From a virus, in IMG/VR virus record IMGVR_UViG_3300031565_004895, positions 1 through 26,294 of that record: DNA of 26,294 bases. One strand, written 5' to 3'. A program made the position numbers and the translations under genes. Below are positions 8,383-16,518 of this stretch, piece after piece. The stretch's first letter is position 1. Every line of letters starts with the position of its first letter. Below the pieces are notes generated by a model, which saw only the letters and a list, made by a program, of their open reading frames with translations, was not told the DNA's origin and made no database searches.

Positions 8383-9684
8383 ATGGCGAACGTAGGCGCA
8401 TTCGAGGACATCACCACCGAACTCAAGAACGCATACCCCCCGGGGACGTTCGAGGAGCCGGTGAACAAGGAGTCGAAGTACCGGCGCGACCTCCAGCGGG
8501 TCGATCTGATGATGAACGAGGGGATCGCGAAGTTCCCCCTCGGCATCGCGTCGGCCTGGAACGTCGGCCTGATCGCAGACGTGGGCAACTTCCCCACGCC
8601 CTACGATCCGACCCGCGTGCAGGGCGAAGTCACGCCGGAGCTCTTCGTGGGCTCCTTCCAGATCGGCGTGAAGACCAAGGTGGCCGCGAAGTCCACCAAG
8701 GGGACGTTCAACCAGGGCGGCATCATGGCCGACCGCGTGGAGAACACCGTCGCGGAGCTCGGCAAGTACATCAACAAGGTCTACGCCGGTTCGCAGGGCC
8801 AGACCGCCATCGGCGGCGTCTACGGCGGCGGCGTCATGGCGACCGTCGAGTCCAACGACGGCGCGTCCACCCTCACTCTGGACAAGCCCCTCGGGGCCGA
8901 GCTCCTGAACCGCGGAATGCGGATCTCCATCGTCAACCCCGGCGCGGCCGTCCGCGCTGGCTGGGGCACCCCCGGCGTTCTGGCCGAGCGCGTCATCAGC
9001 GCGATCGACCGTGACGCCCGCACCATCACCTACACCCTCGGCGACGACGCCACCGTGGCGGCCGGCGACGAGGTGTTCGTCTTCGGGACCTACGGCCGCA
9101 CCATCTGGAGCCTCTCCATGATCATCGGGGACTCCTCGGACTCCGCGGAGATCTTCGAGCAGGCCCGGGCGACCTACCCCGAGCTCAACTCGTTCATCGT
9201 GGATGCGGGTGGGGCCGACCTCACCGAGCAGCTCATCCTGCAGTCCTTGGATCTGCCGCGTCGGGAAACCGGCAAGCGGATCTCCAAGGCCCTGACCAAC
9301 ACGGGACAGGCCCGCAAGTACGTCGAGTTCATCCAGGCCGAGCGGCGCTACCCCGGTCCCACCGGAAGCGCCCCCCGGTACACCATCGGCTACGACGAGG
9401 ACTCCCTCCAGATCCTCGCCCCCGGCATCAACGTCAAGCTCGAGGTGGACTTCGACATCGAGCCCCGGCGGATCTACTTCCTGTGCTGGGAGACGTTCGG
9501 TCGTTACACCTCGATGGACGTCGACTGGATCGACGACGATGCCCTGCTGAAGATGATCCCCACCGATGGGGGCCACAAGGCCGGGTTCCTGGCCTACGTC
9601 GGCTGCGTCGAGAACCAGATCAACACCATGCCGCGTGCGTCCTCGCGTCTCGAGAACCTCGCGGATCCGATCTGCGGCGACTAG
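8383..9684 (+). CDS. Major capsid protein with inserted beta domain
   Basis: This 433-residue protein forms the shell and probably has the HK97 fold. An N-terminal arm (residues 1-60) precedes VGLIADVGNFPTPYDPTRV. A long helix follows at about 112-136 (ADRVENTVAELGKYINKV), the expected spine helix. Residues 150-237 read as an inserted beta domain (GMRISIVNPG through DEVFVFGTYG), as in several podovirus coats. The remainder holds the A-domain-like SFIVDAGGADLTEQLIL and a C-terminal sheet region. The gene follows the scaffold by 21 bases. Its ribosome site is weak, only TAGG seven bases before the ATG, which is unexpected for what should be the most abundant virion protein. Alternative identities are unlikely given position and size. 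Confidence 0.88.
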   Translation: MANVGAFEDITTELKNAYPPGTFEEPVNKESKYRRDLQRVDLMMNEGIAKFPLGIASAWNVGLIADVGNFPTPYDPTRVQGEVTPELFVGSFQIGVKTKVAAKSTKGTFNQGGIMADRVENTVAELGKYINKVYAGSQGQTAIGGVYGGGVMATVESNDGASTLTLDKPLGAELLNRGMRISIVNPGAAVRAGWGTPGVLAERVISAIDRDARTITYTLGDDATVAAGDEVFVFGTYGRTIWSLSMIIGDSSDSAEIFEQARATYPELNSFIVDAGGADLTEQLILQSLDLPRRETGKRISKALTNTGQARKYVEFIQAERRYPGPTGSAPRYTIGYDEDSLQILAPGINVKLEVDFDIEPRRIYFLCWETFGRYTSMDVDWIDDDALLKMIPTDGGHKAGFLAYVGCVENQINTMPRASSRLENLADPICGD

Positions 9685-9740: not shown

Positions 9741-11591
9741 ATGCGAACCAAGATCACCGCCCTGGCTCTGGGTCTTCTCCTCCTCGTCGTGCCGGGTGCC
9801 TTTGCCCAGTACGGCGGCGGGGGGGGGGCCCAGACCTTCACCGTACCCACTCTCACCGTCGGCCCCGGCCCGTTCACCGCGTCCGGCGCGATCTCCTTCA
9901 CGGGGGACTTCACCGTCGGCTCGGGGGCGCAACTGTTCCTGCCGAATGGGACAGTGAGCGATCCCGCGCTCGCCTTCACCAATTCGCTCGACAGCGGGCT
10001 GTATCTGCACACCGCCGACGAAACCCTCGGGTTCGCTATCGACGGCAGCCTGTTCTTCGATCTGGACGACAACGGCTCGATTGCGCGGTGGAACCTCTAC
10101 AACCAGTACGGCACCCAGGGCGTCGCTGTCCGGGGTTACGGCTCGGCAGCCTCGAACTACCTCGCTGTGTTCAATCCGGGCTTCGGGTCCGGGACTGGCC
10201 CGATCAAGCTGTTTGCCGACGCCACGGACCAGTACCTCGTCATCGACGGGCAGGGAACCACCGCCTCGGGCGGCATCCGCCTCGAAACGGACGACGGGGC
10301 CACGGCACCTTACATCCAGTGGATCGCCAACGCGACCCTCGCGGGTAGCGCAACGACGCTGTCTCTGGTCGGCCCCGCCGCACCCAGCGGCGGACCGCAC
10401 ACCATCACGCTGCCCAACGCCACCGGGACCGTCGCCTTGGTCGACGCGGCCAACATCGGAGCGGGAACCACCAGCCTGACGACCACGGCCGCCACGGACG
10501 TTGGCACCTACTCCTTCGGTGCGGCACTCGCCGAGCTGTCTGTCTCGGACGGAACGGACATCGCCCGTCAGCAGATCGACTCGACCGGCATCCTGATCGA
10601 CGGCGACTATGACAACGACGGGTCCGGGGTGGTCACCATCAGCACGGACAACTCCCTCCAGTCGGTCGGCCTCTCCGCTACACAGGTCAACCTTGCTTCA
10701 AACAACCAGATCGTCTCGACGGCGCTGGCAACGAATTTCAGCTCTGTGGTCACCCAGGACGCTACTACATCGACAGTGACCCCGTCCTTCAACGTGGACG
10801 TCGGTGACGCCAACACCGGAACCACCGGGACGCTCAACCTCAACATGGGAACCACCGCAGCGACCAGAGGCCTGAGCTTCAGCAACAACAGCTTGGCTAT
10901 CAACACGGATATTGAATTCGACCTCGTCGACACGCTCAACGACGGCTGGCTCATCTTCACCGACGTCGCTGTACCGACCAACGTCGTCACCTACACGCAG
11001 CGGGCAGATAGCAACCCCGGCTTCACCGAGATCGCTACGAACGGTACGACTACCGCCGGGCTCGATGTGGAGTCTGGGATCAACCCGCTGATGCATCTCG
11101 ACGTCAATACCGCCACCAACCAGACAAGGTTCAGCGTCGACTCCCTTCAGGGCGGGCGGTTCGAGTACCTCAACTCCGGCAACACGGCTCAGATGTGGAC
11201 CGACAACATCGCGTTCACCGACGCGGCGACCATCGGCCTCATGACAATCGGGATCACCAACGGTCTTCAGGTGTCGGGTCAGCTCAGCTACACCGCTGTC
11301 GAGTCCGGTGGTGGAATCATCATCGCCAACCGTGGCGTCTTCAGCTTTGCTTGCGTCAACGAAGCCGACGCTGAGGTTTGTACCTCTGGTAGCCCTGCCG
11401 GAACCGCCTTCGCCGAACACTCGGCTGTGGACGGTGACTCTGGGGCCACGATGGCCTGCACCCCGGCTATCACTCCAGGCACCAACGCCGTGGCGCTTAC
11501 TCTCGCGTGCAACACCAGCTCGTCTGCTGGTGGGACGATCTACTGGAAGGTCGAAAGCGAGAAGGACGCTACCAACGTCACCATCCCGTAA
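9741..11591 (+). CDS. Large beta-rich fibre-like protein with predicted signal peptide
   Basis: A 616-residue protein from the ATG at 9741, chosen because AAAGG precedes it and the upstream frame is shadow within the capsid gene. Residues 1-23 look like a classic Sec signal: basic MRTK, a hydrophobic core (ALALGLLLLVV) and a probable AFA cleavage site before Q23. The mature part is Gly/Thr/Ser/Ala/Asp-rich and beta-prone, with repetitive stretches typical of fibres or adhesins and acidic DxD-type loops (for example DYDNDGSG from residue 289). The only cysteines are C538, C547, C573 and C590 near the C-terminus, consistent with disulfides after export. I infer a surface or tail-fibre-like adhesin. 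No known family is recognised. Its stop overlaps the kinase-like gene. Confidence 0.75.
   Translation: MRTKITALALGLLLLVVPGAFAQYGGGGGAQTFTVPTLTVGPGPFTASGAISFTGDFTVGSGAQLFLPNGTVSDPALAFTNSLDSGLYLHTADETLGFAIDGSLFFDLDDNGSIARWNLYNQYGTQGVAVRGYGSAASNYLAVFNPGFGSGTGPIKLFADATDQYLVIDGQGTTASGGIRLETDDGATAPYIQWIANATLAGSATTLSLVGPAAPSGGPHTITLPNATGTVALVDAANIGAGTTSLTTTAATDVGTYSFGAALAELSVSDGTDIARQQIDSTGILIDGDYDNDGSGVVTISTDNSLQSVGLSATQVNLASNNQIVSTALATNFSSVVTQDATTSTVTPSFNVDVGDANTGTTGTLNLNMGTTAATRGLSFSNNSLAINTDIEFDLVDTLNDGWLIFTDVAVPTNVVTYTQRADSNPGFTEIATNGTTTAGLDVESGINPLMHLDVNTATNQTRFSVDSLQGGRFEYLNSGNTAQMWTDNIAFTDAATIGLMTIGITNGLQVSGQLSYTAVESGGGIIIANRGVFSFACVNEADAEVCTSGSPAGTAFAEHSAVDGDSGATMACTPAITPGTNAVALTLACNTSSSAGGTIYWKVESEKDATNVTIP
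9819..9828 (+). repeat. Ten-G homopolymer just after the signal peptide
   Basis: An uninterrupted run of ten G residues lies inside the fibre-like gene and encodes part of a Gly run right after the predicted cleavage site. Tracts of this length are prone to slippage and to sequencing error. Changing the length by one or two would shift the frame for nearly the whole mature protein. Confidence 0.7.
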
Positions 11592-12127
11592 TGCTCAGCT
11601 TGGCTCTAATCGCGTTGCTCTCCTCGCCCCTCTCCTGGGACGTTGCGGAGGACTTTCTTCGCACCGCCTCGGTAGAGGGGCGGGAGGACACCGCGATCGG
11701 GGACACCAAGCCAGAGCGGCTCACGCTGTCTCAGGACGGCGTGACTGCTCGTGCCATCTGGAAGACCGTCGACAGCACCGGCGGCACGCTGCACGACTAC
11801 TGGGGCTTCGAGGTGGCGGCGTACAAGCTGTCTGAGGCTCTGGGGCTCGGCATCGTACCGCCGACGGTTCGACGCACCATCGACGGGGTCGAGGGCTCTC
11901 TCCAGCTCTGGATGGACGACTGCGAGATGCTCTCGGATCACGGCATCCACGGGGTCGACATGGTGCAGCTCAAGCGGGTTCGGATGCTTGGGGTAATCAT
12001 GAACAACCTCGACGCGCACAACGGCAACATTCTGGTCTGCGAGGGTGGCAAGAAGGTCTACGCCATCGACGCCTCGCGGGCCTTTCAGGACAGGACGAGA
12101 CTCTACATCCTGCTCATGCACAACTGA
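11591..12127 (+). CDS. Compact protein-kinase-like (PI3/4K / HipA / Fam20-like) protein with hydrophobic N-terminus
   Basis: A 178-residue protein starting at an ATG that overlaps the preceding stop (TAATG). Residues 1-16 (MLSLALIALLSSPLSW) are hydrophobic and could be a signal or anchor, though no basic residue precedes the core. The rest reads as a small kinase-like domain. It has ARAIWK with candidate ATP-binding K58, WGFEVAAYKL with E74, and a hinge-like LQLWMDD (104-110). A catalytic-loop-like NNLDAHNGNIL gives D141 and N146, and VYAIDASRAF gives metal-binding D160. The order matches bacterial kinase-fold proteins whose motif is NxDRHxGN followed by IDH(T/S)RAF. The usual Arg after the catalytic Asp is Ala here. 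The substrate is unknown. The tail after D160 is short, so it may be a reduced or inactive kinase. Confidence 0.65.
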   Translation: MLSLALIALLSSPLSWDVAEDFLRTASVEGREDTAIGDTKPERLTLSQDGVTARAIWKTVDSTGGTLHDYWGFEVAAYKLSEALGLGIVPPTVRRTIDGVEGSLQLWMDDCEMLSDHGIHGVDMVQLKRVRMLGVIMNNLDAHNGNILVCEGGKKVYAIDASRAFQDRTRLYILLMHN

Positions 12128-12136
12128 CGCGAACAA

Positions 12137-12167
12137 GCCCCCCGGGCGGGAAGAGACGCCCGGGGGC
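12137..12167 (+). terminator. GC-rich hairpin after the kinase-like gene
   Basis: CCCCCGGGCG at 12139-12148 pairs perfectly with CGCCCGGGGG at 12157-12166 around the loop GGAAGAGA. One more G-C pair is possible past a bulged C. It begins about ten bases after the kinase-like stop and ends just before the ribosome site GAAGGAAGGA (12171-12180) of the next gene. There is no U-tract, so termination may be partial; it could also be a processing or stability element. Confidence 0.65.
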
Positions 12168-12188: not shown

Positions 12189-12548
12189 ATGGCTCTCAAG
12201 TCTGGTCAGTTCAACGGCGGGACCGTTCGCGCCAAGGTGTCCACCGTCATCTCGCACACCCGCAAGGACTTCTTCGAGATCGAGTTCGTTGCGGACCCCA
12301 ACAACACGGGGCAGGTCTACCTGGGCCCGGTCACCGTGACCGACGCCGGAGTGGCCGCCACGATGCAGCTCAACGCGGGCTACTCGAAGCGGTTCGGCCC
12401 ATACAACGCGGGCGGCGGCTTCATCCTCGACCCCACGACCCTGTACGTCGTCGGGTCCGCGGCGAGCCAGGTCTGCTACATCAACGCGATCACCGCCGAG
12501 GGTCGTCGGATCCCGATCCAGGGCCCCGGCACCGTCACCGACTCGTAA
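12189..12548 (+). CDS. Small beta-rich protein, candidate capsid decoration protein
   Basis: This 119-residue protein starts at the ATG at 12189, preceded by GAAGGAAGGA. The longer upstream frame overlaps the kinase-like gene and the hairpin, and is shadow. The sequence alternates hydrophobic and polar residues in beta-like strands (FFEIEFVADPNNTGQVYLG, then PTTLYVVGSAASQVCYI), with Gly/Asn turns and little helix. Similar short all-beta phage proteins, with strands ending LYVxGSAANQ-like, are often found near coat genes and may decorate the shell or form head fibres. The place two genes after the coat fits, but I cannot name a family. An alternative is a small tail or baseplate component. Confidence 0.7.
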   Translation: MALKSGQFNGGTVRAKVSTVISHTRKDFFEIEFVADPNNTGQVYLGPVTVTDAGVAATMQLNAGYSKRFGPYNAGGGFILDPTTLYVVGSAASQVCYINAITAEGRRIPIQGPGTVTDS

Positions 12549-13266: not shown

Positions 13267-14076
13267 ATGAAGGTCAAGAGACTCTGGAACCGCGTCAACG
13301 GCCAGATTTTCGTGTGGGCGGGCGAGGAACCGAAGGAGGTCAAGTACAGCGGATTCCGATTCAAGCTCCCGCCGCGCACCGAGACGGCGAAGCTAGGGCC
13401 CGGATCCATCTACAGATTCGAGTCGGTGCGGGACTCCAAGGACGAGCTCATCCCCGGCACCGCCTGGGTCACCGATGTTGTCGTCTCGAGCGACTCTGGC
13501 GGCCGGCATCGTGTCTTCGACGTGAGCGCCTGCTGCGAGTTCCTGCAGGAGAGCAAGTCCAAGCTGTTCGAGGAGGGCTTCGCTATCGTCTCGGACGTGA
13601 ACGACGTTCGGCCCGCGATGGAGGAGCTCCGGCCGCTCTACGACAAGTCCCAGGACGTTCGCGCCCAGGGCATCCTCGGATCCGAGCTCGATCGCCAGAG
13701 GAAGTACCAGGACAAGGGCCAGGCGGTGCCCGAGCCCGACAACCCGGAGCGCGTCGAGTGGGCGATGAAGCACATGGCTCGCCGACGCAAGAGCATGAAG
13801 CCGACACACGGCATGGACAACATCCAGGCCGTCCTCGAGGGCCGCTTCGATGACGTGGTGAGGGCCGACAAGAGCAACGGCACCCCCGCGCCGATCGCCG
13901 CCTTCAATCCCGAGCCGATGGACGGCCGTGAGTTGTTCAAGGAGTGCAACGAGTGGGGAGTCCGTCTCTCCAAGCGTGAGGTGGAAGCTCTCCTCGAGGG
14001 CGACGAAGAGCAGATCGCCTTCATCGTCGCCAAGTTGAAGGTCAAGAGGGAGGCGACTACGGCGTCCCCAGCCTGA
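13267..14076 (+). CDS. Phage structural-region protein, unknown function
   Basis: A 269-residue protein three bases after the preceding stop, with GGGAGAG as ribosome site. The N-terminal 85 residues look beta-rich (GQIFVWAGEEPKEVKYSGFR, then RFKLPPRTE), followed by a charged helical middle (FLQESKSKLFEEGFAIVSDV, then DRQRKYQDKGQ). A C-terminal helical segment follows (SKREVEALLEGDEEQIAFIV). Two adjacent cysteines (CCEF) fall near residue 88. No membrane segment or enzymatic signature is visible. It probably belongs to the head or connector set because it immediately precedes the adaptor. No family is recognised. Confidence 0.75.
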   Translation: MKVKRLWNRVNGQIFVWAGEEPKEVKYSGFRFKLPPRTETAKLGPGSIYRFESVRDSKDELIPGTAWVTDVVVSSDSGGRHRVFDVSACCEFLQESKSKLFEEGFAIVSDVNDVRPAMEELRPLYDKSQDVRAQGILGSELDRQRKYQDKGQAVPEPDNPERVEWAMKHMARRRKSMKPTHGMDNIQAVLEGRFDDVVRADKSNGTPAPIAAFNPEPMDGRELFKECNEWGVRLSKREVEALLEGDEEQIAFIVAKLKVKREATTASPA

Positions 14077-14788: not shown

Positions 14789-16518
14789 GCAAGGAAACTC
14801 CAGACCAGGGCGTCAAGCGGTTCGAGCACCGGGCCGGAACGGAGGAGGTTCCGACCATCGGCGGGATGTCCCGCCTGGGCGACGAGGCGCAGATCCCAGT
14901 CCGACAGCACCACCTTCTCGTGAACGTCCGGTTCGGGCCGGGCGAGATGAGCTCCCGCCCCGGCCTCGAGGAGACGGACGACCTGGGCGAAGCGGCGTGC
15001 ATCACCGGCCTCATCGAGACGGTCGAGAACACCGGCACCGGCGGGGGCCTCGTGACCGGTCTCCTCACGGGCTACTGGTACGGGTACGGCCCGGACCCCA
15101 GCAACGACCACTACCTCTACCTGAACCCGGATGATGACGACGCTCGGATCTCCGGCGACCCCACCCAAGCTCGCCCGCTCATCAAGACGCCGGCGGTGTT
15201 CGGCGACGGGGCCCACGTCACCGAGAGCTTCTGGCCCGCAGGCGGGATGATATCGCACTACTGGGGGATATTGGGATGTGGGCCCTCAGAGCCGGTGGTG
15301 GGCCCGCTCAACCCGTTCACCTTCCAGGGGAACACTTGCGTTCTGGGCGGCACGCCAGACCTCGGCATCTTCGCGGTCGTGGCCGCCGACGACAACAGCT
15401 CCGGGGCCCTCAACCGCATCAACAACTTCGGCAACTACGCCCCCGTGTCCTCGGTCATTCGCGAGGAGATCATCGGCGGCGCGGTCACCCAGGTGCTCTA
15501 CTTCAGCGCCACCGACGGGAACGTCTACCGCTTCGACGGGACGACCCTGAGCCTCTGGTGGAGCGCGACAGTGGCCCTCGCTGAGGTCTTCTACTGGAGG
15601 CTGTTCGTCTCCGGCCAGGAGATGCTCCTCCTGGGCGACCACACCGTGGCGGTAGATCTGTCAGGTAGCGCTTTGCCGCCCGGGACTGCCACATTCGGGC
15701 AGGGGGTCATCTACTATCAGGCGGCCCCTGGTGGGGTGATCTCGTTCTGCTCGATCACGGCCACGAACTACAGTATGAATCGCGACCCGGTGACGGGAGA
15801 GACGGCCAACCGCTCTATCGGCTGGACCGGGGCCACCCGCTACCGGGACAAGTGGTTCGTCTTCCTCCAATGCCAGCCGGCTAGCCAACACACTCCGCCG
15901 CCTTACCTCATCCCGGAGGCCTACTCTCAGATCCTCGAGGCGACGGTGGGGGCCGCAGCCCTGTCCTTCACGGTGGTCTGGGACGACGTGTTATTTCTGC
16001 CCGGGCCTGGGGGCGAGCCAAGCCAGGTCTACGTTTCTCAGCCGGTGACATTCAAGGATGATGTCTACTTCTTCACCGGGTGGTTCTCGAGGTGTGTCGG
16101 GAACGGTTCAGATATACGGATCCCGGAGGACTTCTTTCCAGACGACCACTCTCTCTGGCTCGGGAGGTTCGACGGGGTGACGTGGGATCCGTTCTACGTC
16201 AATCTTCTGCAAGTGTTCCCCTGGGACGGTGCCGTTACGGGGGCTTTCTTCGAGCTCGCACAGCCCAACTGGCTGTACCCGAACGGGGACATCCTGATTG
16301 CCAGCGTCTCCGCCGCCCCCCTCGCCGCCCCTCCCGTCCCGCCGGTGGAGTCCCTATACTTCTGGCGGGATGTGGACGCATTGGGGCCATTCCCCTTCGG
16401 CAACGTCGAGGACGTCCGTTTCGTCACCAGTCCGGGTCTGCCGCCCACAGCGGGCTCATTGCTACTCCCTCTGGGCTCCAAGAGCGTGTACTACGCGATC
16501 CCGGACGAGGTGGACTGA
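14785..16518 (+). CDS. Tail hub / stabilisation-like protein 1 (propeller-like)
   Basis: A 577-residue protein with a TTG start at 14785 overlapping the adaptor stop (TTGA), with GGGAGGGG just upstream. The N-terminus has the pattern of short-tail hub proteins: VRQHHLLVNVRFGPGEMSSR followed by PGLEET, i.e. a run of strands and then an RPG loop. The remainder is beta-rich with repeated blades separated by Gly/Pro loops (for example VLYFSATDGNVYRFDGTTLS and DVYFFTGWFSRC). Propeller-like plugs such as P22 gp10 follow the adaptor in related phages, and this gene lies in that slot. I infer a tail hub or plug. A receptor-binding or glycan-cleaving role cannot be excluded. It overlaps the next gene by one base. 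Confidence 0.65.
   Translation: MSKETPDQGVKRFEHRAGTEEVPTIGGMSRLGDEAQIPVRQHHLLVNVRFGPGEMSSRPGLEETDDLGEAACITGLIETVENTGTGGGLVTGLLTGYWYGYGPDPSNDHYLYLNPDDDDARISGDPTQARPLIKTPAVFGDGAHVTESFWPAGGMISHYWGILGCGPSEPVVGPLNPFTFQGNTCVLGGTPDLGIFAVVAADDNSSGALNRINNFGNYAPVSSVIREEIIGGAVTQVLYFSATDGNVYRFDGTTLSLWWSATVALAEVFYWRLFVSGQEMLLLGDHTVAVDLSGSALPPGTATFGQGVIYYQAAPGGVISFCSITATNYSMNRDPVTGETANRSIGWTGATRYRDKWFVFLQCQPASQHTPPPYLIPEAYSQILEATVGAAALSFTVVWDDVLFLPGPGGEPSQVYVSQPVTFKDDVYFFTGWFSRCVGNGSDIRIPEDFFPDDHSLWLGRFDGVTWDPFYVNLLQVFPWDGAVTGAFFELAQPNWLYPNGDILIASVSAAPLAAPPVPPVESLYFWRDVDALGPFPFGNVEDVRFVTSPGLPPTAGSLLLPLGSKSVYYAIPDEVD

Follow-up and report, generated by a model that had tools for sequence, protein, structure and literature searches.

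A gene for a predicted FAM20/PI4KII-fold kinase-like protein between structural genes of a phage

The locus and its empty counterpart

The window, a stretch of 26,294 nucleotides of viral DNA (IMG/VR record IMGVR_UViG_3300031565_004895), carries at 11591-12127 a gene for a kinase-like protein of 178 residues, here named P0001; this gene and the flanking features listed below lie on the plus strand. The ordered kinase-like elements that the original prediction had read from this open reading frame are in place, and every residue that it named is present, among them K58, E74, D141, N146 and D160. The protein begins with an export-like hydrophobic N-terminus (residues 1-21; 11591-11653), followed by an FLRTA...GDTKPERLTL...IWK element that is common to an exported bacterial family and ends with K58 (11654-11764). 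The catalytic loop NNLDAHNGN, with D141 and N146, and the metal-binding IDAS, with D160, are encoded at 12005-12079, where A142 stands for the Arg of the usual DR(H/N).

The left flank is formed by the gene of the major head protein (8383-9684; phrog_14242) and by a gene for a fibre-like protein whose signal peptide looks classical (MRTKITALALGLLLLVVPGAFA/QYGG; 9741-11591). The stop codon of the latter overlaps the ATG of P0001 in the sequence TAATG, so that translation of the two genes may be coupled. If extended in frame as far as possible, P0001 would start within the fibre-like gene, at a GTG at 11507. On the right, a strong G+C hairpin without a T run (12138-12167; -27.1 kcal/mol, z -5.5) is followed by a gene of the virion module encoding 119 residues (12189-12548). 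Neither a T-run terminator nor a sigma-70-like promoter was found around the P0001 gene, and its codon positions resemble those of the rest of the phage (GC3 0.86).

Over 14.4 kb a second viral contig is a 99.91% match to the window, with ten base differences and one short gap, and the two may represent one virus population. An assembly chimera is unlikely, because the second contig carries the P0001 gene identical at every base. The differences between the two contigs are mostly clustered at 16210-16392, perhaps a variable tail-protein segment or an effect of assembly.

The same major head protein is encoded on twelve contigs, and wherever these cover the region the kinase is absent, save on the near-identical contig. 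Among phage relatives that cover the site the nearest is L170, whose capsid protein is 88% and whose 119-residue protein is 83% identical; it has the signal-bearing fibre and, conserved 3' of the fibre gene, the hairpin, without a kinase. There the fibre stop codon is followed by a few bases, then by TGACGTGAAC and the hairpin; in the window the kinase gene is followed by TGACGCGAAC and the same hairpin, which forms the right border of an insert of about 535 bases. The TGA stop codon of P0001 lines up with phage sequence of this empty-site relative and may, judging from the alignment, have been supplied by the phage at the junction. Since L170 provides a natural empty site with fibre and hairpin, the P0001 gene is with high confidence an accessory insertion that shows no tie to the fibre. 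As the kinase is present in one lineage only, the event would be a gain here and not a loss in all the others.

The coupling of kinase and exported fibre proposed in the original prediction was not upheld: a signal-bearing fibre or similar protein is conserved in L170, L175 and L177, all without the kinase, which occurs in one virus only. That an exported kinase modifies the phage's own signal-bearing fibre protein would suit two adjacent, overlapping genes whose products both have export-like N-termini, but it is very hard to reconcile with the retention of the signal-bearing fibre in L170, and of signal-bearing proteins in the same slot in L175 and L177, where no kinase exists, and it is the least credible of the explanations considered. 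In other relatives the fibre slot holds a different protein of 270-360 residues without an obvious signal peptide. Elsewhere, the N-terminal part of the product of the window's gene at 14785 matches two separate places in each of two relatives (13446-13691 and 15139-15384 in L170; 13272-13523 and 15044-15385 in L176).

Predicted fold and relatives

The AlphaFold2 model of P0001, made from an alignment of 39 sequences, is confident (pLDDT 88, pTM 0.83) and has a two-lobed kinase fold of the PI4KII/FAM20 type; its weakest parts are residues 1-10 (pLDDT 58) and the last block. The top VIA-align matches were hydra Fam20 (Z 13.8, rmsd 3.4, 173 of 178 residues) and PI4KII (Z 13.5), followed by other Fam20 proteins, CtkA and Rio kinases. 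Foldseek agreed, with PI3K and PI4KII entries in the lead. A family profile working on sequence alone found PI4KIIalpha at 7.5e-18 and FAM20A at 4.9e-17. The PI3/4K- and Fam20-type fold that had been claimed for the protein is thus borne out by model, fold matches and profile matches, and LQLWMDD, described as hinge-like, coincides with the strand at which the model would have its hinge (residues 100-106).

Pfam PF00454 (PI3_PI4_kinase) reached E=0.0012 and 19.2 bits, below its gathering cut-off of 27.1, and SCO1664 (TIGR03843) reached a significant E=1.4e-12 and 47.6 bits, below its curated cut-off of 172.4. Pfam gave no HipA match for P0001 and only a weak YjjJ match (E=0.035); HipA is a distant fold match of L036, a full-length bacterial relative. 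CotH was not among the listed profile and fold matches, an absence that proves little. The protein AMPylases SelO and Fic gave no profile match, and PHROGs contained no family for P0001. Among the matches listed, a phmmer search of the PDB returned only chains of HIV envelope gp120, aligned to residues 44-102 with a best E of 3.2e-05 and otherwise at 0.05 or weaker, which were judged to be due to chance, the fold being unrelated to the model. Searches with P0001 gave weak matches only in a phage collection and two weak matches in a plasmid collection, one of them annotated as SCO1664 family.

Relatives gathered by patterns and profiles fall into three groups: phage proteins, an exported-looking bacterial family and the SCO1664 family of actinomycetes. 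When P0001 was left out of the HMMs, that of the exported bacterial group scored it at 143 bits, that of the phage fusions at 104 bits and that of SCO1664 at 70 bits; 500 shuffles reached at most about 8 bits in the same test, so the kinase signal is far above chance. A tree of 91 rows places P0001 with the exported bacterial group (support 98/88), outside the bacterial members and on a separate long branch (1.01); its best identity to any relative is about 42%. P0001 is accordingly very probably both a protein of the FAM20/PI4KII fold and kin of the exported bacterial family. With that family it has in common the FLRTA element, the hydrophobic N-terminus, EVAAY..VPPTV..GSLQLW and the D/N/D active-site residues; it differs in being phage-borne, in the missing C-terminal helices and in having no Arg next to the catalytic Asp. 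The FAM20 proteins (Fam20A/B/C) are alike in fold (Z 21.1 for full-length L036) and, presumably, in exported location, whereas P0001 is much shorter, is 18% identical and has an Asn in the catalytic loop where FAM20A (NMDRHHYE) has another residue. The type II PI4-kinases PI4K2A/B have the same fold, NxDxxxxN loop and IDxxxxF motif, but P0001 is shorter and only about 21% identical over the fold. The SCO1664 proteins, unlike P0001, have H at the position of N146 and no hydrophobic N-terminus.

The exported bacterial family, for which no curated name was found, occurs in 35 of 199 sampled Acidobacteriota genomes and in Neiella and Kangiellaceae. Acidobacteriota copies number up to seven matches in one sampled genome, and another, searched separately, gave 11 matched stretches; several paralogues per acidobacterial genome were observed (L036, L038, L039, L040, G003-G006). 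In the Neiella and Kangiellaceae members the kinase domain is joined to a phosphoesterase-like region. In L034, L035 and L037, bacterial proteins that look exported, a FAM20-like kinase domain is combined with a calcineurin-like phosphoesterase, which Pfam matched in L034. Such fusions suggest that phosphate may be cycled within the envelope. When viral contigs were scanned for the exported family with short patterns, no other phage with a member of that clade was found, an absence that is not proof. An alignment of only five relatives, all highly divergent, was not strong enough for scanning.

Kinase domains of the same superfamily also occur on other phage proteins. PI3/4K-like domains follow a MuF, minor capsid 2 or portal domain (Pfam) in proteins of many uncultured phages (L012, L013, L015, L019, L020, L022, L027, L028, L029, L033), and these kinase-fused head proteins are candidates for head-packaged, injected kinases. 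The same kinase domain lies at one end of very large phage proteins of about 1900-2030 residues that appear polyvalent-like (L165, L166, L167, L004), of which L167 starts with a stretch that looks Nudix-like by eye. Intein- or Hint-like insertions (weak Pfam matches) lie within the kinase-bearing head-type proteins L012 and L025. The open literature searched yielded no description of phage head proteins that carry PI4K/FAM20-like domains.

P0001 could itself be an effector that is packaged in the head and enters the host along with the DNA, as has been proposed for enzymatic domains on MuF-type head proteins. Its gene lies within the head module, and at least ten phage proteins carry a kinase domain of its superfamily C-terminal to MuF, minor capsid or portal domains. 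Those domains, however, are joined to head proteins, have a longer C-terminal part and occupy a separate part of the tree, whereas P0001 has no MuF, portal or minor capsid domain, begins with a hydrophobic segment and groups with the exported bacterial family and not with the phage fusions; the injection of P0001 is consequently improbable.

Active-site residues, truncation and the export-like N-terminus

The nucleotide-binding Lys (K58) and the helix-C Glu (E74) of P0001 align to conserved columns, and K58, E74, D141, N146 and D160 are all kept in 17 of 17 phage relatives compared. Wherever a row has a letter at that position, D160 is conserved, and D141 is conserved in all rows but one. In the exported, mainly bacterial group, a label that in the tree and in these counts includes a few misfiled phage rows outside the bacterial clade (L003, L024, L031-L033), N146 is kept in 53 of 57 rows and E74 in 46 of 57, while the K58 column has R in 16 and Q in 8 (24/57). 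N146 is present in all phage rows, E74 in all rows of the other groups, and K58 in all phage and SCO1664-type rows. The conservation of K58, D141, N146 and D160 among homologues on which the original prediction depended was therefore found, K58 being the least conserved of the four.

P0001 departs from its relatives at three near-invariant positions (D134G, R142A and H/N161A); position 142 is R in 85 of 90 relatives. It ends 18 residues after D160, where relatives run on for about 50 residues or more, and lacks the complete C-lobe with its C-terminal helical tail, which in the model of full-length L036 (the source of the Fam20 match at Z 21.1) comprises helices 255-263, 266-273 and 279-303 beyond the end of P0001. 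A detached C-lobe was sought elsewhere in the window with a family HMM built including P0001, which matched P0001 alone. The missing helices and the replacement of the near-invariant Arg (142) and Asp (134) make catalysis uncertain, and the loss of the helices and of the Arg makes a pseudokinase a serious option. Iyer et al. 2017 (PMC5512222) described another, distinctive group of phage kinases, without mention of PI kinases or Fam20, that lacks the C-terminal subdomain and keeps the active-site residues; the loss of the C-lobe in P0001 thus need not mean a loss of function. P0001 has about even chances of being catalytically active.

A captured fragment, neutral or decaying, would also be truncated: only the N-terminal two thirds would have been taken up, with a stop codon from the recipient junction and an inactive product. 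The missing part is conserved in the relatives, the TGA aligns with phage sequence in L170, near-invariant residues are changed and a single virus carries the gene, all of which this explanation accommodates. Against it, the frame is intact at a best identity of about 42%, so that the gene has either been retained or arrived complete not long ago, the ATP- and metal-binding residues survive and model confidence is high over most of the protein. A neutral or decaying fragment is on this evidence rather unlikely.

A hydrophobic stretch before the domain was found in a plain hydropathy test in 61 of 67 exported bacterial rows, an approximate figure in that some genes are represented by two rows and the start was in some cases set too far upstream, as against 1 of 73 SCO1664-type open reading frames. 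The hydrophobic start of P0001 scores 2.49, a value reached by 24 of 2000 shuffles; no basic residue precedes it and no clean cleavage site follows from the sequence. The export-like N-terminus claimed for P0001 is plausible, because the closest bacterial relatives look exported and nearly all begin in the same way, and with such weak signal features of its own export is likely by kinship and not by direct demonstration. On that footing P0001 is probably exported.

Proposed role and significance

P0001 is best explained, with a probability of roughly 0.6, as an accessory late gene ('moron'): a C-terminally truncated, phage-borne offshoot of exported bacterial FAM20/PI4KII-like kinases that acts, if at all, in the host envelope. 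The predicted fold, the family kinship, the conserved ATP- and metal-binding residues, the truncation and the natural empty site are the established parts of this explanation. An exported bacterial kinase gene would have been captured, shortened and inserted between the fibre stop codon and the conserved hairpin. Its product would be translated late, alongside the structural proteins, through TAATG coupling to the fibre gene, and the hydrophobic N-terminus would take it into or across the inner membrane, where host envelope components would be its target. It might act there as a phosphotransferase of compact form or, as a pseudokinase that binds nucleotide, interfere with an exported kinase of the host itself. 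Counting against this explanation are the weak signal features of the N-terminus, the occurrence of the gene in one virus population only and the poverty of the periplasm in ATP; the replaced near-invariant residues and lost helices, which speak against an active enzyme, may mean that P0001 is inactive. The more specific proposal, that the phage exports a minimal FAM20-like kinase late in infection which functions without the C-lobe helices and phosphorylates or nucleotide-modifies host envelope proteins or glycans, appears unlikely.

FAM20-type kinases that are exported are known chiefly from the secretory pathways of animals. Their structural relatives described here form an exported-looking, little-described family of Acidobacteriota, often with several copies per genome and in some members fused to a phosphoesterase, of which a phage has taken up a shortened member. 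The kinase domains on phage head proteins point, in addition, to a possible class of injected phage effectors. An inactive P0001 would be a clear example of gene capture for which a relative preserves the empty site; an active one would be a virus-encoded kinase directed at the envelope of bacteria and an unusually compact functional version of the fold.
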